Origin: Pseudofrankia sp. DC12
Lineage (GTDB): Bacteria > Actinomycetota > Actinomycetes > Frankiales > Frankiaceae
NCBI RefSeq assembly: GCF_000966285.1
Contig: NZ_KQ031391.1
Location: 3,135,208 to 3,199,207, forward strand
Direction: 5' to 3'
DNA: 64,000 bases
The notes beneath the pieces were generated by a model that saw nothing but the letters and a program-made list of their open reading frames with translations, was not told the DNA's origin and ran no database searches. A program made the position numbers and the translations under genes. Shown here one piece after another: positions 39,153-56,094 of this stretch (position 1 is the first letter of the stretch; each line of letters opens with the position of its first letter).

Positions 39153-39413
39153 TCACTGATAGTGGTAGCGGCAGGCGATGACGGTGATCTGGCCGGGCTC
39201 AACCGCGTAAACCAGTCGATGTTCGTCATCGATCCGGCGTGAGCGCAGCCCGGCCAGGTTGTTGCGCAACAGCTCAGGCTTGCCGATCCCCGGCCCCTCG
39301 GGATCCCGTTTGATGTCCGCGATCAACACGTTGATCCGCTTAAGTGTCTTCCGGTCCTGGCCCTGCCAGTAGAGGTAGTCATCCCAGGCGTGGTCGGTCC
39401 AGATCAGCTTCAC
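39153..39413 (-). CDS. yoeB: YoeB/Txe-type ribonuclease toxin
   Basis: An 86-residue RelE-fold toxin that cleaves mRNA at the ribosome. It reads KLIWTDHAWDDYLYWQGQD, KTLKRINVLIADI, GKPELLRNNLAGLRSRRI, DEHRLVYAV and the C-terminal ACRYHY, all standard for YoeB (catalytic Glu, Arg and terminal His-Tyr). The GTG start overlaps the yefM stop (GTGA). Confidence 0.93.
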   Translation of the reverse strand: MKLIWTDHAWDDYLYWQGQDRKTLKRINVLIADIKRDPEGPGIGKPELLRNNLAGLRSRRIDDEHRLVYAVEPGQITVIACRYHYQ

Positions 39414-39667
39414 TCGTCGGGATCCAGCAACCGTTCGACCGCATCGCCCGAGCGCCACTGCTCCACGCTCTCCATCAGCCGCCTGGCATTGGCCGGGGTG
39501 CGCAGCAGGTAGTTGGTCTCGACGATCGAGTCCCAGTCCTCCTTGCTCACGAGCACCGCGTTCCCACGCTTCGAGACGATCTCGACAGGCGTGTGATCGG
39601 CATTGACCTGCTCGATCAGCGGGAACAGAGTCTTCCGCGCCTCGCTGGCGCTGATCGCCGCCGCCAT
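39410..39667 (-). CDS. yefM: YefM antitoxin
   Basis: An 85-residue Phd/YefM antitoxin: ISASEARKTLFPLIEQVN, VEIVSKRGNAVLVSKEDWDS and the toxin-binding tail ETNYLLRTPANARRLMESV. ATG 39667 follows GGAGG with a normal spacer. An inverted repeat at 39698-39717 just upstream is the likely autoregulatory operator. Confidence 0.93.
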   Translation of the reverse strand: MAAAISASEARKTLFPLIEQVNADHTPVEIVSKRGNAVLVSKEDWDSIVETNYLLRTPANARRLMESVEQWRSGDAVERLLDPDE

Positions 39668-39697
39668 GGCGTCCTCCGATCCAGAGCTTGCCGAATG

Positions 39698-39717
39698 TTG
39701 TACCAGATACGGTACAA
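39698..39717. promoter_or_regulatory. Candidate YefM operator
   Basis: TTGTACC (39698-39704) and GGTACAA (39711-39717) form a perfect 7-bp inverted repeat around six bases, 31 bases before the yefM ATG. YefM of E. coli binds palindromes with a TGTACA core, which this resembles. Confidence 0.65.
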
Positions 39718-39894
39718 GAACTCGGCGGCTACGTCGATGACGGCGACCCTGCCGGCCCAGCTCCTGGGGCGCCAAGCGACGCTCCAGCCGGAGGGCCGGC
39801 GGCCTGATCGGACGTGCATACTACAGCACTGGTTACTTCGACACTGGTGGGTCATGCAGTACCATGTACCGACTTCGAGTTCCGCCTCGTCGCG

Positions 39895-39978
39895 GCACGA
39901 GGGGTGCGACGGCACGAGGGGTGCGACGGCACGAGGGGTGCGACGGCACGAAGGGTGCGACGGCACGAAGGGTGCGCC
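39895..39978 (+). repeat. Five tandem 17-bp repeats upstream of an antitoxin gene
   Basis: The unit GCACGAGGGGTGCGACG starts at 39895, 39912, 39929, 39946 and 39963. The first three copies are identical, the fourth has one change (GAAGGG) and the fifth shares it and diverges at its end. The array abuts the candidate start at 39979. Confidence 0.9.
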
Positions 39979-40683: not shown

Positions 40684-41121
40684 TCAGGCACCCGGTCCGT
40701 GGGCCGCGCGGCGGAATGTCGGGTTGTCGGGGTAGTCGCGCGCGGCGGCCCGAAAGATCTTCCGCCTGCCGGCAGTCGCACGGCCGTTGCGGAGCTCCGC
40801 GCCGACCTCGCTCCACCAGTCCCGCGCGTTCACGCCAGCGCCGAAGACGGGCAGCAGGTCGGCCCGGATGCCAGCCCGCCTCAGCAGTGCCCCGACCGCC
40901 GACGCGGACTGGTACGCGCCGGCGAGCGCCGCTATCTCGTCGTCGGACAGTCCCACCGGCTCGCCGTTCGGGCCTGGCGGATCCTCCGACGCAGGCCGGC
41001 CGGCGTCCGGCGCGGCACCTCCGTCTGCCGGCAAGTGATCACCCGCCCGCGCGTAGTCGCCGACGGCGACATTCTTCACCCCGCGGATGTTGCCAAACGA
41101 GTATTTCGACACGTCAGACAC
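40684..41121 (-). CDS. Effector-associated domain (EAD1) protein
   Basis: A 145-residue protein. Residues 5-26 form the glycine-rich motif SKYSFGNIRGVKNVAVGD followed by YARAG. After a Pro-rich linker, residues 58-137 match effector-associated domain 1: LSDDEIAALAGAYQ, VGALLRRAGI, WWSEVGAELRNG, GRRKIFRAAARDYPDNPTF. EAD domains are adaptors in NTP-dependent conflict systems and link sensors to effectors by homotypic contact. The GTG start lies three bases after the stop of the upstream membrane-protein frame, so the two are co-transcribed. No second EAD protein is seen in the window. Confidence 0.78.
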   Translation of the reverse strand: MSDVSKYSFGNIRGVKNVAVGDYARAGDHLPADGGAAPDAGRPASEDPPGPNGEPVGLSDDEIAALAGAYQSASAVGALLRRAGIRADLLPVFGAGVNARDWWSEVGAELRNGRATAGRRKIFRAAARDYPDNPTFRRAAHGPGA

Positions 41122-41522
41122 CGTTCAGCTCCCTGCTGTCCCGTCCTTCGGCTTGTCCGGGCCCGCGGGCCCGCTGGGCCGCCGCCCGCCCGGCGGGCTG
41201 GTGCCACCGCCGGCGCCCGGCGGCCGCTCCCGCCCGTCCCCGGCCCGGCTGTTCGTGCCGATCGCGACGTTGTCGCCGACGACGTCGCCGAACAGGTAGC
41301 TGGTGATGTTGTTGACGATGGTCCGCCGGCGGTCGGTCAGGTCGGAGGTGTCGACGCCCCGGGCGTCGAAGAACTCCTCCAAGGCGGCGAGCAGCCGGTC
41401 CTGGAGGCGGGCGACCTGGCCTTGCTCGTCGATGTGTGAGTTGTAGTACCGGTGCTCGTCGCGGGCGACAGCCTCCCGCAGCGAGTACGCGAGCCCGTAG
41501 TCGAAGCGGCGCAGCCGGCGAA

Positions 41523-41556
41523 GCGCGCGGGCGTCGCGCGCGGGCGTCGCGCGCGG
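41523..41556. repeat. 13-bp tandem repeat at second frameshift
   Basis: GCGCGCGGGCGTC occurs at 41523-41535 and 41536-41548, followed by eight more matching bases. Deleting one unit makes the minus strand read GCG CGC GAC GCC CGC GCG CTT, joining frames 2 and 3. Confidence 0.9.
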
Positions 41557-42530
41557 ACCGCCGCCGGTGGCCGAGCTCCTCGGCGAGCCCGGCCCCGCAT
41601 TTGCGGGGGCTGGCGAACAGGGCGCCCAGGGTCTGCCGAGCGGCCGAGCGCAGAATGTCCCAGGCCCTCTCGCGGGGGCCGACCAGGCCGGAGACGTCAC
41701 CGAGCCAGGACTCGTCGACCGGTAGCAGGCCGTGCGCGGAGACCTCGACCATCAACAAGTTCGCGCTGAGCTCCGCCCGGACGAACATGGTGACCACCAG
41801 CTCGCCGTCCCAGCCGGTCAGCTGGAGGCAGAGGTACGCGCGCCTTTTGGGGTGCGGGCTGTGCAGCTCCTCGAGCAGCCGGTCGTGGGGCAGCTCGGTG
41901 ACCGGCGGCCGCGCCCGGTCGGGGACCAGATCGCGGAATCCGCCGACGGCCATGCCATCGACGTAGAGCCGGTGGCCGCACCAGAGACCCGAGATCTTTA
42001 CGCTGGCGGCCGACGTCCGCAGGAAACGGTGCAGCGCGGCGACGTCGATAGGCTCGGGAGTCGCCCGGTCGCCGTCGCCGCTGTCCTTGCCGCGGGTGAC
42101 GTCGACGACGATGGGAAAGCCGCCGAGCCGGTCTCCCGAGCCGACGAACGGGTCCTTCTTGCGCATTTTTCCATAAATGACGACATTCGCGGACTCAGTG
42201 CGGCGGGCGCGGTCCAGAATCCACCTCGGCAGCGGCCGGGCCAGATCGAACGGGCTGTTCGCCCGGTTGAGCAGGGCCGCCGCCTTCGCCACGCCGATCG
42301 CCAGGTCGGCGACGACGGTGAGCCAGGCGACGACGAGGCCGCCGGCGAGCACCAGCAGGTCCGCCCAGGGCAGCGACGCGCCGCCCCGGACGAGCAGGAC
42401 CGAGCCGGCCGCCACGACGGCGACCAGTACGGCCAGCGCCAGCGCGCCCTGCTCCGAGCTGACCTGCCGCCACAGCAGCCCGAGCACCCGCCGGACGGTG
42501 ACCGGTTCGTCGCCCCGCCACTGCCGCAGC

Positions 42531-42562
42531 GCCGACCGCCCGCCGACCGCCCGCCGACCGCC
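42531..42562. repeat. 11-bp tandem repeat at first frameshift
   Basis: GCCGACCGCCC occurs at 42531-42541 and 42542-42552, with ten bases of a third copy. Deleting one unit joins frames 1 and 2 (reading GGRSALRQWRGDEP). Confidence 0.9.
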
Positions 42563-43273
42563 GCGCCGACGACGAGGACGGCGATAAGGAGTGCGACGTG
42601 GTCGCCGAACCGCAATCCCATATCAACCAGCACGGCGGCGGGAGTTCCGACGAGCAGGAGCAGCAGGACGCCGTCCCGGGTACGGCGCCGTCGGCGGGAG
42701 TCCAACGCGTGCTGCAGTACCGCGGGAAGGTTCACCGAGTAGCACGGCGCCCAGGCCCGGTGCCGTTCCCGAATGGTCCTCGAGAGCACCAGGTCGGTCA
42801 GCGGGTTCGAGAGGTGGACCGCGGCGCACAGGGAACGGGTCGGCGGGCTGTCGATCGCGTCGCCGTAGTCGTCGGCCGGAAACACGCCGGTGGCAGTCGG
42901 CGGATCGGCCTCCGGTTCGAGGAATGGCGGGTCGACGGTGGCCGGGCCGGCGGCACGGCGAGATGGGCTCCAGAGCGCCATGGTTACCCCCGCATCCAGG
43001 TCGCGCAGGCCCAGAGGCCGGCCTGACGATGGAAGACCCGGCGGTGGCGCTTCTACGAGTGCCGACAGCGGTGCCGGGTGGGGGCCGGTTCACGAACCTG
43101 GCCAAAGTGTAGGGCTCCATGTGCGACTGGATCCCATTCTTTTCCTATATTCAGTTGGACAGGTATTGATACTCCCGAGCGCTACCGTAGCCCGTTCCGG
43201 GCGACGGCGACGGACCGAGGGCCTGGCAGGCTGGTCGACGACCTAGGCATCCGTGTGGAGGACATCCCGCCAG

Positions 43274-49452: not shown

Positions 49453-49640
49453 CGGCCACCTCCCGAACCAGCCGGGCCGGCTGTCGGGCCAGTTGCCGGG
49501 CGGCCTGTCGGGCCGCCCGTCGGCCGGGTTGTCGGGCCGCCCGTCGGGCGGGTTGTCGGGCCGCCCGTCGGGCGGGTTGTCGGGCCGGCTGTCTGGCGGG
49601 TTGTCGGGCCGGCTGTCTGGCGGTAGTCGGCGGGGGTCAT
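49449..49640 (-). CDS. 63-residue Pro/Thr repeat peptide, nested in operon
   Basis: A short ORF fills the gap between the dehydrogenase and the GT2 exactly. Its ATG overlaps the dehydrogenase stop (ATGA) and its TGA overlaps the GT2 GTG (GTGA). The peptide begins MTPADYRQTAGPTTRQT and continues in eight-residue repeats of the form GPTTRPTG, from six 24-bp DNA repeats (period 24 from about 49481 to 49624). The repeat period keeps the frame. I do not recognise a homolog. It may be a real small protein, or a coupling linker. Confidence 0.55.
   Translation of the reverse strand: MTPADYRQTAGPTTRQTAGPTTRPTGGPTTRPTGGPTTRPTGGPTGRPATGPTAGPAGSGGGR
49481..49624. repeat. 24-bp tandem repeats
   Basis: Units beginning TTGTCGGGCC or CTGTCGGGCC start at 49505, 49529, 49553, 49577 and 49601, with a degenerate first copy near 49481. 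Period is 24 throughout and there are no spacers. Confidence 0.9.
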
Positions 49641-50614: not shown

Positions 50615-51455
50615 TGGTTCACTCCTCGGACGCGCTGGTCCCGCGGCGCGCCGGTCGTCATGGGTGGCGCCAGGCCGGGCTGTTGCTGCTGCTCGGGCGA
50701 CGGCCAGCGGAGTTGGACTGGCAGCCGAAGAACCGCGACCCGTCGCGTGCCCGGTCGCCGGTATTTCCCGGTTTGGCGCGCGCGGGCCACTCACTCGGAT
50801 ACGCCGCGCAGTCACGAGATTACCTGGCTCGGCGCGGGATGGCCGGGATTCCGCTGGTAACAAGTCCGTGAATCAGGAGGCCAAAATCACTGCATTATCG
50901 TGATCGGCTGCCGAAAGGGCCATAAGGAGAAGATGGAACGCGGCGGAGAAATGGAGGCCAAGTCGTCCGCTATTCAGCTTCACGGGTGAAAACGTCCCGG
51001 CGCTGGCGCGTGGCGCGCTCGGGGTCGCGCTCGGGGTCGCGCTCGGGATGGCGACGCTCACCGCCTGCCTCCCGGCGTCGTTCCCGCCGCCGAGCCACCA
51101 GGGCACGGTCACCCGCCCGGTCACGCCCGCCGCCGGCCCGCTACCGGCCCGCTACCGGCAGCCTTGGCGCCGGGAACCGTCGGTGCCATGGCCGCCGTCT
51201 CGTCGGCCCGGCAGGTGCCGCAGGTCCTGGACCCTCTCGGAGTGGTGCCGGCGCAGGTCCTGGACCCTCTCGGAGTGGTGCCGGCGCAGGTCCTGGACCC
51301 TCTCGGAGTGGAAGCGGACCGGGGCCGCTCGCGTCACCGGCCCGCAGGCCCGCCCGGACGCCCCGGACGCCCCGGACGCCCCGGACGCCCCGGACGCCCC
51401 GGACGCCCCGGACGCCCCGGACGTCGAGGACACACGGCCGGAACCAGCCGTCCGG
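50615..51455. other. 841-base repeat-rich gap upstream of the glycan operon
   Basis: It holds the promoter region of the minus operon and several tandem repeats: three 12-bp units (51014-51048), three 33-bp units from 51221, and seven 9-bp GCCCCGGAC units (51360-51422). The plus frame from 51164 reads QVLDPLGVVPA repeated and then Gly-Arg-Pro triplets, which is periodic because 33 and 9 are multiples of three. I see no ribosome site or conserved domain, so no gene is called. Confidence 0.5.
51221..51422. repeat. 33-bp and 9-bp tandem repeats
   Basis: A 33-bp unit starting CAGGTCCTGGACCCTCTCGG occurs at 51221, 51254 and 51287 (last partial). It is followed by GCCCCGGAC repeated seven times from 51360. 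Confidence 0.9.
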
Positions 51456-52910: not shown

Positions 52911-53512
52911 CGAACCCGCACCTTCTTCACACCGCGCGACCGTCACCCACCGCGCGACCGTCGGAGGCCGGCCGTCGCCGCGCTGGCACTGACGGGCAGC
53001 CCCTGGGTCGCCGCCTGGCGACTCCCGGGCGCACCGATGCGCCGCGAGGCGATACCCAGCGTACCGATCTGCGGTCCAGACCCCGTGCGCCGTCAGGCGG
53101 CGCCGCGGTGCCGCGGTATTGCGGTACCGCGGCATTGCGGTACCGAAAACGGCCGGTGCCGGGAACGGTGGCCGCGCGGCCGGGCCGCCGCCGCCGGTCA
53201 CCGGGCGGGGCCGGACCCAGGCGGCCGCGTGAGAGGCCGGCGGGCCGGGTACGGACTCCCAGGTGGACCTGCACCTTTCCGCTCTCGGCGGAACGCCGTG
53301 CCGGAATCATGACCGCTCGGCCACCGTTGGCGTAGGCGTCGAGGAAGACGTCTGGACCCATCGGGGCACGACGGCGCTGTCGGCCCCGTCCGCGACGAGG
53401 TGGCCGGGTTCTGACGGATAGGTTTCTGTTCGATGCGTGAGGACATGCCTCGGCGGAGCTAGCATGCGGATACCGGCTGTCGTGTGGTCGGTCGCAGCTC
53501 GAAGGAGCGCAC
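52911..53512. other. 602-base divergent gap lysS/clpC
   Basis: Holds the promoters of both genes. A 16-bp repeat (CCGCGGTATTGCGGTA) occurs at 53111 and 53127 with one difference, full of CGGTACCG palindromes. A minus-strand frame from 53361 starts MGPDVFLDAYANGGRAVMI and looks protein-like for about 40 residues but then runs into low-complexity sequence, so it may be a gene fragment. The lsr2 gene I would expect near here in related genomes was not found. Confidence 0.45.
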
Positions 53513-56023
53513 ATGTTCGAGAGATTCACCGACCGGGCACGTCGGGTCGTCGTCCTGGCTCAAGAAGAGGCCAGGATGCTCAACCACAACTACATCGGCA
53601 CCGAGCACATCCTCCTCGGCCTGATCCACGAGGGTGAGGGTGTCGCGGCGAAGGCGCTGGAGTCGCTGGGGATCTCGCTCGAGGGTGTGCGGTCGCAGGT
53701 TGAAGAGATCATCGGTCAGGGCCAGCAGGCCCCGAGCGGGCACATCCCCTTCACCCCGCGCGCGAAGAAGGTCCTCGAGCTGTCCCTGCGCGAGGCGCTG
53801 CAGCTCGGTCACAACTACATCGGCACCGAGCACATCCTCCTCGGCCTGATCCGCGAGGGTGAGGGTGTCGCCGCCCAGGTGCTGGTGAAGCTCGGCGCCG
53901 ACCTCAACCGGGTCCGCCAGCAGGTCATCCAGCTGCTGTCCGGCTACCAGGGCAAGGGCGACCCGGCGACCGCCGGCGCGCCGTCCGAGGGCACGCCGTC
54001 GACGTCGCTGGTGCTCGACCAGTTCGGCCGCAACCTGACCGCGGCCGCCCGCGAGTCCAAGCTCGACCCGGTCATCGGGCGCGAGAAGGAAATCGAGCGG
54101 GTCATGCAGGTGCTGTCGCGGCGGACCAAGAACAACCCGGTCTTGATCGGCGAGCCCGGCGTCGGCAAGACCGCGGTCGTCGAGGGCCTGGCGCAGGCGA
54201 TCGTCAAGGGCGAGGTGCCCGAGACACTCAAGGACAAGCAGCTGTACACCCTCGACCTCGGCGCGCTGGTCGCCGGTTCCCGCTACCGCGGTGACTTCGA
54301 GGAGCGGCTGAAGAAGGTCCTCAAGGAGATCCGCACCCGCGGCGACATCATCCTGTTCATCGACGAGCTGCACACGCTCGTCGGGGCGGGTGCCGCCGAG
54401 GGCGCGATCGATGCCGCGTCGATCCTCAAGCCGATGCTGGCTCGTGGCGAGCTGCAGACCATCGGCGCGACCACGCTCGACGAGTACCGCAAGCACCTGG
54501 AGAAGGACGCGGCGCTGGAGCGCCGGTTCCAGCCGATCCAGGTCGCGGAGCCGTCGGTGGCGCACACCATCGAGATCCTCAAGGGCCTGCGCGACCGGTA
54601 CGAGGCGCACCACCGCGTCTCGATCACCGACGCCGCCCTCGTCGCCGCCGCGTCGCTGGCCGACCGGTACATCTCGGACCGCTTCCTGCCGGACAAGGCG
54701 ATCGACCTGATCGACGAGGCCGGCTCCCGGATGCGCATCCGCCGGATGACCGCGCCGCCGGACCTGCGCGAGTTCGACGAGCGCATCGCGAACGTCCGCC
54801 GGGACAAGGAGTCCGCGATCGACGCGCAGGACTTCGAGAAGGCGGCGTCGCTGCGCGACAAGGAGAAGAACCTGATCGCGGACAAGGGCAAGCGCGAGAA
54901 GGAGTGGAAGGCCGGCGACATGGACGTCGTCGCCGAGGTCGGCGACGAGGAGATCGCCGAGGTGCTCGCCATCTGGACGGGCATCCCGGTCTTCAAGCTG
55001 ACCGAGGAGGAGACGGCCCGCCTCCTGCGCATGGAGGACGAGCTGCACCGGCGCGTCATCGGCCAGCAGCAGGCCATCAAGGCCGTCTCCCAGGCGATCC
55101 GGCGTACCCGGGCCGGCCTGAAGGACCCGAAGCGCCCCGGCGGCTCGTTCATCTTCGCCGGCCCGTCCGGTGTCGGTAAGACCGAGCTTTCCAAGACGCT
55201 GGCCGAGTTCCTGTTCGGCGACGAGGACGCGCTCATCCAGCTCGACATGTCCGAGTACATGGAGAAGCACACCGTCTCGCGGCTGGTGGGCTCCCCGCCC
55301 GGCTATGTCGGCTACGAGGAGGGCGGCCAGCTCACCGAGCGGGTGCGCCGCAAGCCGTTCTCGGTGGTCCTGTTCGACGAGGTCGAGAAGGCCCACCCGG
55401 ACGTCTTCAACACGCTCCTGCAGATCCTGGAGGACGGCCGCCTGACCGACTCCCAGGGCCGGCTGGTCGACTTCAAGAACACCGTCCTGATCATGACGTC
55501 GAACCTGGGCACCCGCGACATCTCCAAGGGCCCGGGCATCGGCTTCGCGACCGGCCAGGGCGCGGTCGACTACGAGCGGATGAAGGCCAAGGTCCAGGAC
55601 GAGCTCAAGCAGCACTTCCGGCCCGAGTTCCTCAACCGCATCGACGACATCATCGTCTTCCACCAGCTGTCCCAGGACGAGATCATCCAGATCGTCGACC
55701 TGATGCTGGCCCGGGTCGACTCGCAGCTGAAGAACAAGGACATGGCGCTGGAGCTCACGCCGGCCGCCAAGCAGCTGCTCGCCGTCCGCGGCTACGACCC
55801 CGTGCTGGGCGCCCGGCCGCTGCGCCGGACGATCCAGCGGGAGATCGAGGACGTCCTGTCCGAGAAGATCCTGTACGGCACACTGAAGCCGGGCGAGATC
55901 GTGATCGGTGACGTCGAGGGTGACCCCACCGCCGAGGACGCGAAGTTCGTCTTCCGCGGCGAGACGAAGCCGAGCTCGGTCCCGGACACCCCGCCCATCG
56001 ACCTGGCCAAGTCCGGCGAGTAA
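53513..56023 (+). CDS. clpC: ATP-dependent Clp protease ATPase subunit ClpC
   Basis: Hsp100 unfoldase that feeds substrates to ClpP. The 836 residues contain two Clp_N repeats (1-150, both with [14 protein letters not shown]), AAA-1 with Walker A GEPGVGKT (about 213), a UVR linker (about 421-460), and AAA-2 with Walker [10 protein letters not shown] (about 550), [13 protein letters not shown] and the ClpP-binding loop region [16 protein letters not shown] lies a few bases before ATG 53513. Length and order match actinobacterial ClpC. Confidence 0.97.
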
Positions 56024-56094
56024 GGCCGGGCGCGCAGCGCCCTGGCCGGGTAGGTGTGCAGGAGACAGCTCGGCATAAACTGAACAGCAAGGTT

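Follow-up and report, generated by a model that had tools for sequence, protein, structure and literature searches.

Two short tandem duplications interrupt the membrane-protein gene of a candidate two-gene module in Pseudofrankia sp. DC12

In Pseudofrankia sp. DC12 a gene for a multi-helix membrane protein is broken by two short tandem duplications that are absent from an intact relative, and in relatives where the frame is open the C-terminal tail of the protein carries a motif that is matched near the N-terminus of a protein encoded next door. We consider it probable that a membrane-effector module has here been turned off through the recent and ordinary slippage loss of a dispensable accessory gene. 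The breakage is ordinary in kind, and the matched-motif module seen in the intact relatives is the more interesting result. The analysis started from a stretch of 64,000 nucleotides of the DC12 genome (the window), which is assembled as a single contig of 6,884,336 bases and is 99.01% complete; the features concerned are collected in Table 1.

Table 1 Features of the broken gene and its neighbour in the window.
Feature	Position	Strand	Basis
Broken multi-helix membrane-protein gene	41125..42981	(-)	blastn to the 610-aa AgB1.9 orthologue; tblastn matches split over two frames
11-bp tandem array, 3.6 copies, 96% match	42530..42570		TRF; 11-bp gap, one unit more than AgB1.9
13-bp tandem array, 2.6 copies, 100% match	41523..41556		TRF; 13-bp gap, one unit more than AgB1.9
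ORF from the gene's ATG, 327 aa	41998..42981	(-)	ORF list; translated native N-terminus
Tail motif of the membrane protein, YLFGDVVGDNVAIGTNSRAGD	41236..41298	(-)	Translation, alignment; beyond the reach of translation from the ATG
Partner gene, 145 aa, open	40684..41121	(-)	N-terminal matched motif and EAD1; Pfam E=4.2e-14
N-terminal matched motif of the partner, YSFGNIRGVKNVAVGDYARAGD	41038..41103	(-)	ORF translation, alignment

Comparison with Frankia sp. AgB1.9 locates both lesions. A blastn alignment of the minus-strand gene with gap costs of 5/2 runs over 1,890 columns at 88% identity, and its sole gaps, 11 bp and 13 bp long, are confined to the two arrays, which confirms the original observation that the frameshifts are exact tandem duplications. 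At the default BLAST gap costs the gaps at these two sites are broken into several smaller ones, totalling 11 and 13, and one compensating pair of 1-bp gaps is added within the gene (42583/42589); the two-gap picture therefore hinges on gap costs, and the net lengths of 11 and 13 bp do not. The AgB1.9 orthologue is a single open frame of 610 codons. The 1,857 bp in the window between the ATG at 42981 and the in-register stop at 41125-41127 equal 610 codons, a stop and the 24 bp of extra DNA (11 + 13), so that the proposed recovery of a 610-codon frame upon removal of both units holds. Translation from the ATG is native for about the first 147 residues and out of frame for the remainder, and a stop at 41998, in the shifted stretch between the duplications, cuts the ORF to 327 residues; the original register returns after the second duplication, past this stop. 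When the three segments of the gene are each read in their own frame, no further stop is found. Each duplication appears to be one unit added to an already partly repetitive sequence. The two lie about 1 kb apart and bear out the earlier claim of two independent events; neither is present in AgB1.9, the single close relative in which the gene was detected.

What would the intact gene encode? Neither the intact AgB1.9 protein nor any of the relatives scanned matched a Pfam or NCBIfam model over its cut-off, and the window's gene segments likewise matched no Pfam model; PADLOC gave these segments no match at E<=1, and a PDB sequence search of the membrane protein returned nothing better than E=0.69. 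The AlphaFold model of the intact AgB1.9 protein (mean pLDDT 79, pTM 0.78, 47-row alignment) has long N-terminal helices, a mixed domain at residues ~260-420, a long helix, two terminal helices and a tail, for which the pLDDT from residue 557 onward is mostly under 50. The long hydrophobic helices are predicted to cross the membrane. Foldseek with this model gave no match at E<=0.001, and VIA-align of residues 272-543 reached a Z of 7.2 at most, with many rows of START or PR-10 type, a size of Z that may reflect merely a common arrangement. No family is assigned to the membrane protein from these fold searches. A search with a ten-row alignment places the family in 67 of the 393 genomes of the class (E<=1e-8), a count that includes tail-less members. 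Among the 48 family loci examined outside the DC12 genome, which include the AgB1.9 locus (L016), come from five families and form a part of the class-wide matches, the match lies in one open frame in 47. The one stop reported for each of L065, L070, L135, L136, L137 and L139 is, by coordinates, simply the natural stop of that gene, where the match ends. L142 was considered as a second frameshifted member and rejected, its break falling at an N in a draft contig. L071 and L072 represent a subfamily without the matched tail motif, and in both loci the tail-less member lies near a gene read as threonyl-tRNA synthetase.

The gene that follows starts 3 nt past the stop of the membrane-protein gene, and its product contains an EAD1 domain (PF19955) that scores 53.2 bits against a curated cut-off of 24.2, well in line with the original description of the broken gene as conflict-linked. 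This partner is 72% identical to its AgB1.9 orthologue. Eight EAD1 loci are present in the DC12 genome, and we read two of them (L143 and L147) as EAD1 with an NTPase region behind it. An EAD1 match over the Pfam cut-off and the eight loci are points of likeness to the EAD1 conflict systems of Kaur et al.; the difference is that EAD1 is here coupled, through a matched tail motif, with a membrane protein, a pairing that the available portion of PMC8195603 does not describe. Further downstream of the EAD1 gene lies a pair of a YefM/Phd-type antitoxin and a YoeB-type toxin (39153-39775).

Both window proteins carry a common motif, read as FGDVVGDNVAIGTNSRAGD in the tail of the membrane protein and as FGNIRGVKNVAVGDYARAGD near the start of the partner. 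In the 48 family loci, partners were picked by downstream position and codon-position GC and not by motif, which left 45 pairs (L114 and L132 are without a partner, and L142 was dropped for its broken tail); L110 and L115 were kept among these even though in both the chosen ORF is more than 220 nt distant and does not match. Local alignment of tail against partner start gave a mean score of 69.2 for own pairs and 33.0 for swapped pairs, and none of 20,000 permutations reached the own mean, the highest being 42.0. The own partner ranked first in 23 of the 45 pairs and within the top three in 37; besides L110 and L115, the weakest pairs are L068, L135 and L139, with a score of 36 each and ranks of 7, 12 and 14. 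With one representative for each of the 15 tail clusters the own mean is 77.1 and the swapped mean 31.5, and 12 of the 15 rank first. In the set of 43 pairs that excludes L110 and L115, 657 of 1,303 aligned motif residues are identical. Fourfold third bases at identical residues differ in 223 of 409 cases, compared with a fraction of 0.56 when random codons for that residue are drawn from the gene concerned. Because the synonymous sites are as different as random ones, the match does not stem from fresh DNA duplication or gene conversion; selection on the protein keeps the motifs matched. The partners of L127, L128 and L131 seem to bear the matched motif more than once, and L140 has a longer partner (L140:3683-4618) whose motif is nearly identical to that of the tail; this partner is most likely the PNP_UDP_1 protein, the Pfam scan naming no member.

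Pfam matches at E<=0.01 among 44 partners, the window's included, comprise DUF5955 in 12, EAD1 in five, and PNP_UDP_1 and CATRA-C in one each. Nine Pfam families are found among these 44, none of them an NTPase, and no NLR partner was seen. DUF5955 was named in no paper found in the literature search, and for amyloid motifs combined with EAD, BASS3 or Streptomyces no title or opening of an abstract among the matches listed describes such a pairing.

How could a private pair of matched motifs act? Bacterial amyloid signalling (BASS) pairs are, in the available part of PMC7889193, encoded by adjacent or overlapping genes mainly in actinobacteria and cyanobacteria, an NLR bearing the motif N-terminally and a BELL-domain effector bearing it C-terminally. 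The present module resembles such a pair in arrangement, in that adjacent genes of filamentous actinobacteria encode a membrane-type protein with the motif at its C-terminus and a neighbour that has it N-terminally; on this likeness the module would work in the manner of such a pair. The differences are that partners with a Pfam match have EAD1, DUF5955 or other domains and no NLR, and that the membrane protein, mostly ~480-650 aa long (starts guessed), has a cytosolic domain of its own. A further difference lies in the motif. The core of the RHIM and PP motifs is given as G-h-Q-h-G in the accessible text of PMC7885112; a core of the type h-Q-h-G occurs in just one of our 43 pairs and in neither window motif, and RHIM membership was rejected on this count. 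The looser h-x-h-G is present in 35 of 43 tails and in the partner of 31 of the 43 pairs; being common in background stretches too (187 of 318), it carries little information.

An alternative hypothesis is that the motif is a short beta-solenoid or an ordinary docking peptide that holds a constitutive complex together, with no amyloid or templating involved, and we give it a chance only slightly short of even. The rarity of the RHIM-type core fits this alternative, and so do the six PDB matches of the motif profile, all non-significant, among which there is no RHIM amyloid; one of them (E=3.7) is an acyltransferase, which we take to be a left-handed beta-helix. Against it stands the layout, C-terminal on one protein and N-terminal on the other, in adjacent genes and private to the locus, which is that of the amyloid signalling pairs in the part of PMC7889193 that was available.

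For the intact module we propose the following. The gene would encode the membrane effector of a two-gene conflict-type module, built of N-terminal transmembrane helices, a cytosolic domain and the C-terminal tail motif, which the EAD1 neighbour repeats near its own N-terminus. In relatives, both motifs probably bind or template each other, such that an activated adaptor would turn the membrane protein on. Receptors that carry EAD1 and are encoded at other loci of the genome may in turn recruit the adaptor; in such a chain, EAD1-EAD1 contact would link EAD1-NTPase receptors to the adaptor, and the motif would link the adaptor to the membrane protein. Counting against this scheme, the tail motif and the membrane role are predicted features and the protein has no confident fold relative. 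More broadly, and tentatively, such modules may be two-gene switches of non-NLR type, spread over at least five actinobacterial families, where locus-private matched motifs under protein-level selection join a membrane effector to a small adaptor (EAD1, DUF5955 or others) in insulated lines of amyloid-like or solenoid type, the line in the window having been cut by two slippage events; we would place this slightly below an even bet. The module bears on a question in print, in the available part of PMC7889193, of whether signalling amyloids exist outside NLR-dependent pathways, and the 43 candidate pairs with private motifs form a ready test set for motif specificity.

When did the window's copy break? 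Named genome contigs were scanned with the protein's middle segment, which matched one locus, that of AgB1.9, at 83% identity, where the intact orthologue is syntenic with the window gene and the break is absent. The gene is present in two of eight genomes of the genus, its own included, and is thus accessory. Of 27 AgB1.9 gene models compared with the window, 21 match, 20 of these at >=70% identity (two covered under a quarter), and the membrane-protein gene is the single one of the 20 that is broken. The reverse survey of window models against AgB1.9 printed 23 rows and flagged six: four have a stop in the first 85 or last 5 residues, a fifth is split over the initial 42 residues, and the sixth, an antisense ORF of doubtful reality, has its stop at residue 102. 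None of the six counts as a broken gene, five being start or end overruns. The dN/dS of the broken gene against AgB1.9, computed for three segments each in its own frame, is 0.35, 0.37 and 0.31 (dS 0.18-0.26), which equals or slightly exceeds the upper end of the range for 12 other window genes (0.05-0.34) but is far from 1; that of the EAD1 partner is 0.51. These values, with the lack of any further stop in the segments, indicate that the break is recent and that the gene was constrained for most of the divergence. A recent break would leave dN/dS no time to climb towards 1, the value that relaxed constraint would give. A frame broken relative to an intact syntenic orthologue, in a relative that lacks the break, is what an ordinary recent pseudogene presents; the window gene differs from that class in showing no other decay yet and in a dN/dS still far below 1.

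Replication slippage is the simplest account of the breakage, and recent loss by this route is most likely. Slippage on short GC-rich direct repeats would have added one 11-bp and one 13-bp unit, and it is a likely cause because the sites already were short direct repeats. The product, stopping at 327 aa, would lack the cytosolic domain and the tail, leaving the module off. The second duplication would have been free to arise after the first knockout; because the first had already broken the gene, neutral accumulation can explain the second. Two observations count against plain loss. Two frame-breaking duplications have struck one recently intact gene of 1.8 kb, which is somewhat unexpected in a short time under pure neutrality or chance alone, and the adjoining EAD1 gene has kept its frame, so decay does not extend to the entire module.

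These same observations bear on whether silencing was selected, in that loss of a costly or self-toxic effector (e.g. through autoimmunity) may have been favoured, the duplications being fixed adaptive hits. The conflict-linked neighbour, the double hit, the low dN/dS until the break and the patchy distribution across the genus are all compatible with this, which we nonetheless regard as unlikely: one hit would suffice and the second is not needed, the adaptor gene remains open, and the evidence comes from a single genome. It is more doubtful still that the extra units are sequencing or assembly errors not present in the cell. GC-rich direct repeats could mislead an assembler, but the genome is a single contig at 99% completeness, the arrays of 34-41 bp are below usual read length, and the 19 other gene models that compare at >=70% identity all have unbroken frames. 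If real, the broken allele provides a natural effector-minus strain in which the adaptor is still present.

Recent loss by slippage also has to be set against reversible switching. Duplication-driven phase variation affects several pneumococcal capsule genes, cap3A being one; Waite et al. reportedly described spontaneous tandem duplications behind capsule phase variation in 2001, and are said to have extended this in 2003 to cap8E and tts. The likeness to these genes is a short tandem duplication inside an ORF that shifts the frame; the difference is that here two separate duplications occur in one gene and are known from one assembly. A contingency locus would be expected to carry a high-copy tract, to retain it in relatives or to differ in copy number among the cells of a population, and the first two features are lacking here. 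The suggestion, made from the outset, that array slippage toggles the membrane effector off and on in this manner is the least probable of the readings, since the arrays hold only 2.6 and 3.6 units, contraction would be needed at both separate sites, AgB1.9 is without a tract and 47 of the 48 other family loci are open, even though the duplications are clean and in principle exactly reversible, the gene has no other lesion relative to AgB1.9, and tandem duplication in pneumococcal capsule genes provides a precedent (PMC4022640, in the part available, with citation of the 2003 work by Waite et al.).

The repeat background was sampled in 464 kb of the DC12 genome, the window included, and in 400 kb of another genome of the genus (G001). 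Exact tandem repeats with units of 10-60 bp that are not a multiple of three number 13 rows in DC12 and 12 in G001, and by codon-position GC their effect on frame is ambiguous in 11 of the 13 and nine of the 12. Both clear DC12 rows lie in the membrane-protein gene and change frame on one strand, and the three clear G001 rows comprise two that keep the frame and one between opposite strands. Multiple-of-three repeats make up 33 of 46 rows in the DC12 sample and 15 of 27 in G001; an excess of such units is as expected if frame-breaking repeats are selectively removed. Exact tandem repeats with units of at least 10 bp occur at 9.9 per 100 kb in DC12, against 6.8 for G001 and 5.5 for the AgB1.9 contig. 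The idea that tandem duplication is raised across the whole genome, as a form of hypermutation, finds no support, the DC12-G001 difference not being significant (46 rows in 464 kb against 27 in 400 kb, p=0.13). The window contains 12 of the 46 DC12 rows (p=0.03), or 10 when two double rows are merged (p=0.12).

Several other arrays lie in the window. Five near-identical 17-bp units (39893-39976) end just upstream of an in-frame ATG of a helix-turn-helix gene, which makes a third tandem array within a 3-kb distance of the broken gene; AgB1.9 has two weak copies only, with 4 mismatches each. A 24-bp array of 5.6 copies (49473-49630) gives a PTTRPTGG-type repeat in one reading, and a 33-bp array (2.8 copies) and a 9-bp array (7.9 copies), each with a 100% match, occupy 51219-51423. 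The 836-aa protein encoded at 53513-56023 has a rounded identity of 100% to that of AgB1.9, and identity at the DNA level is 97% over 53241-56025 compared with 87-91% in the adjoining blocks, reflecting either a recent exchange or strong constraint.
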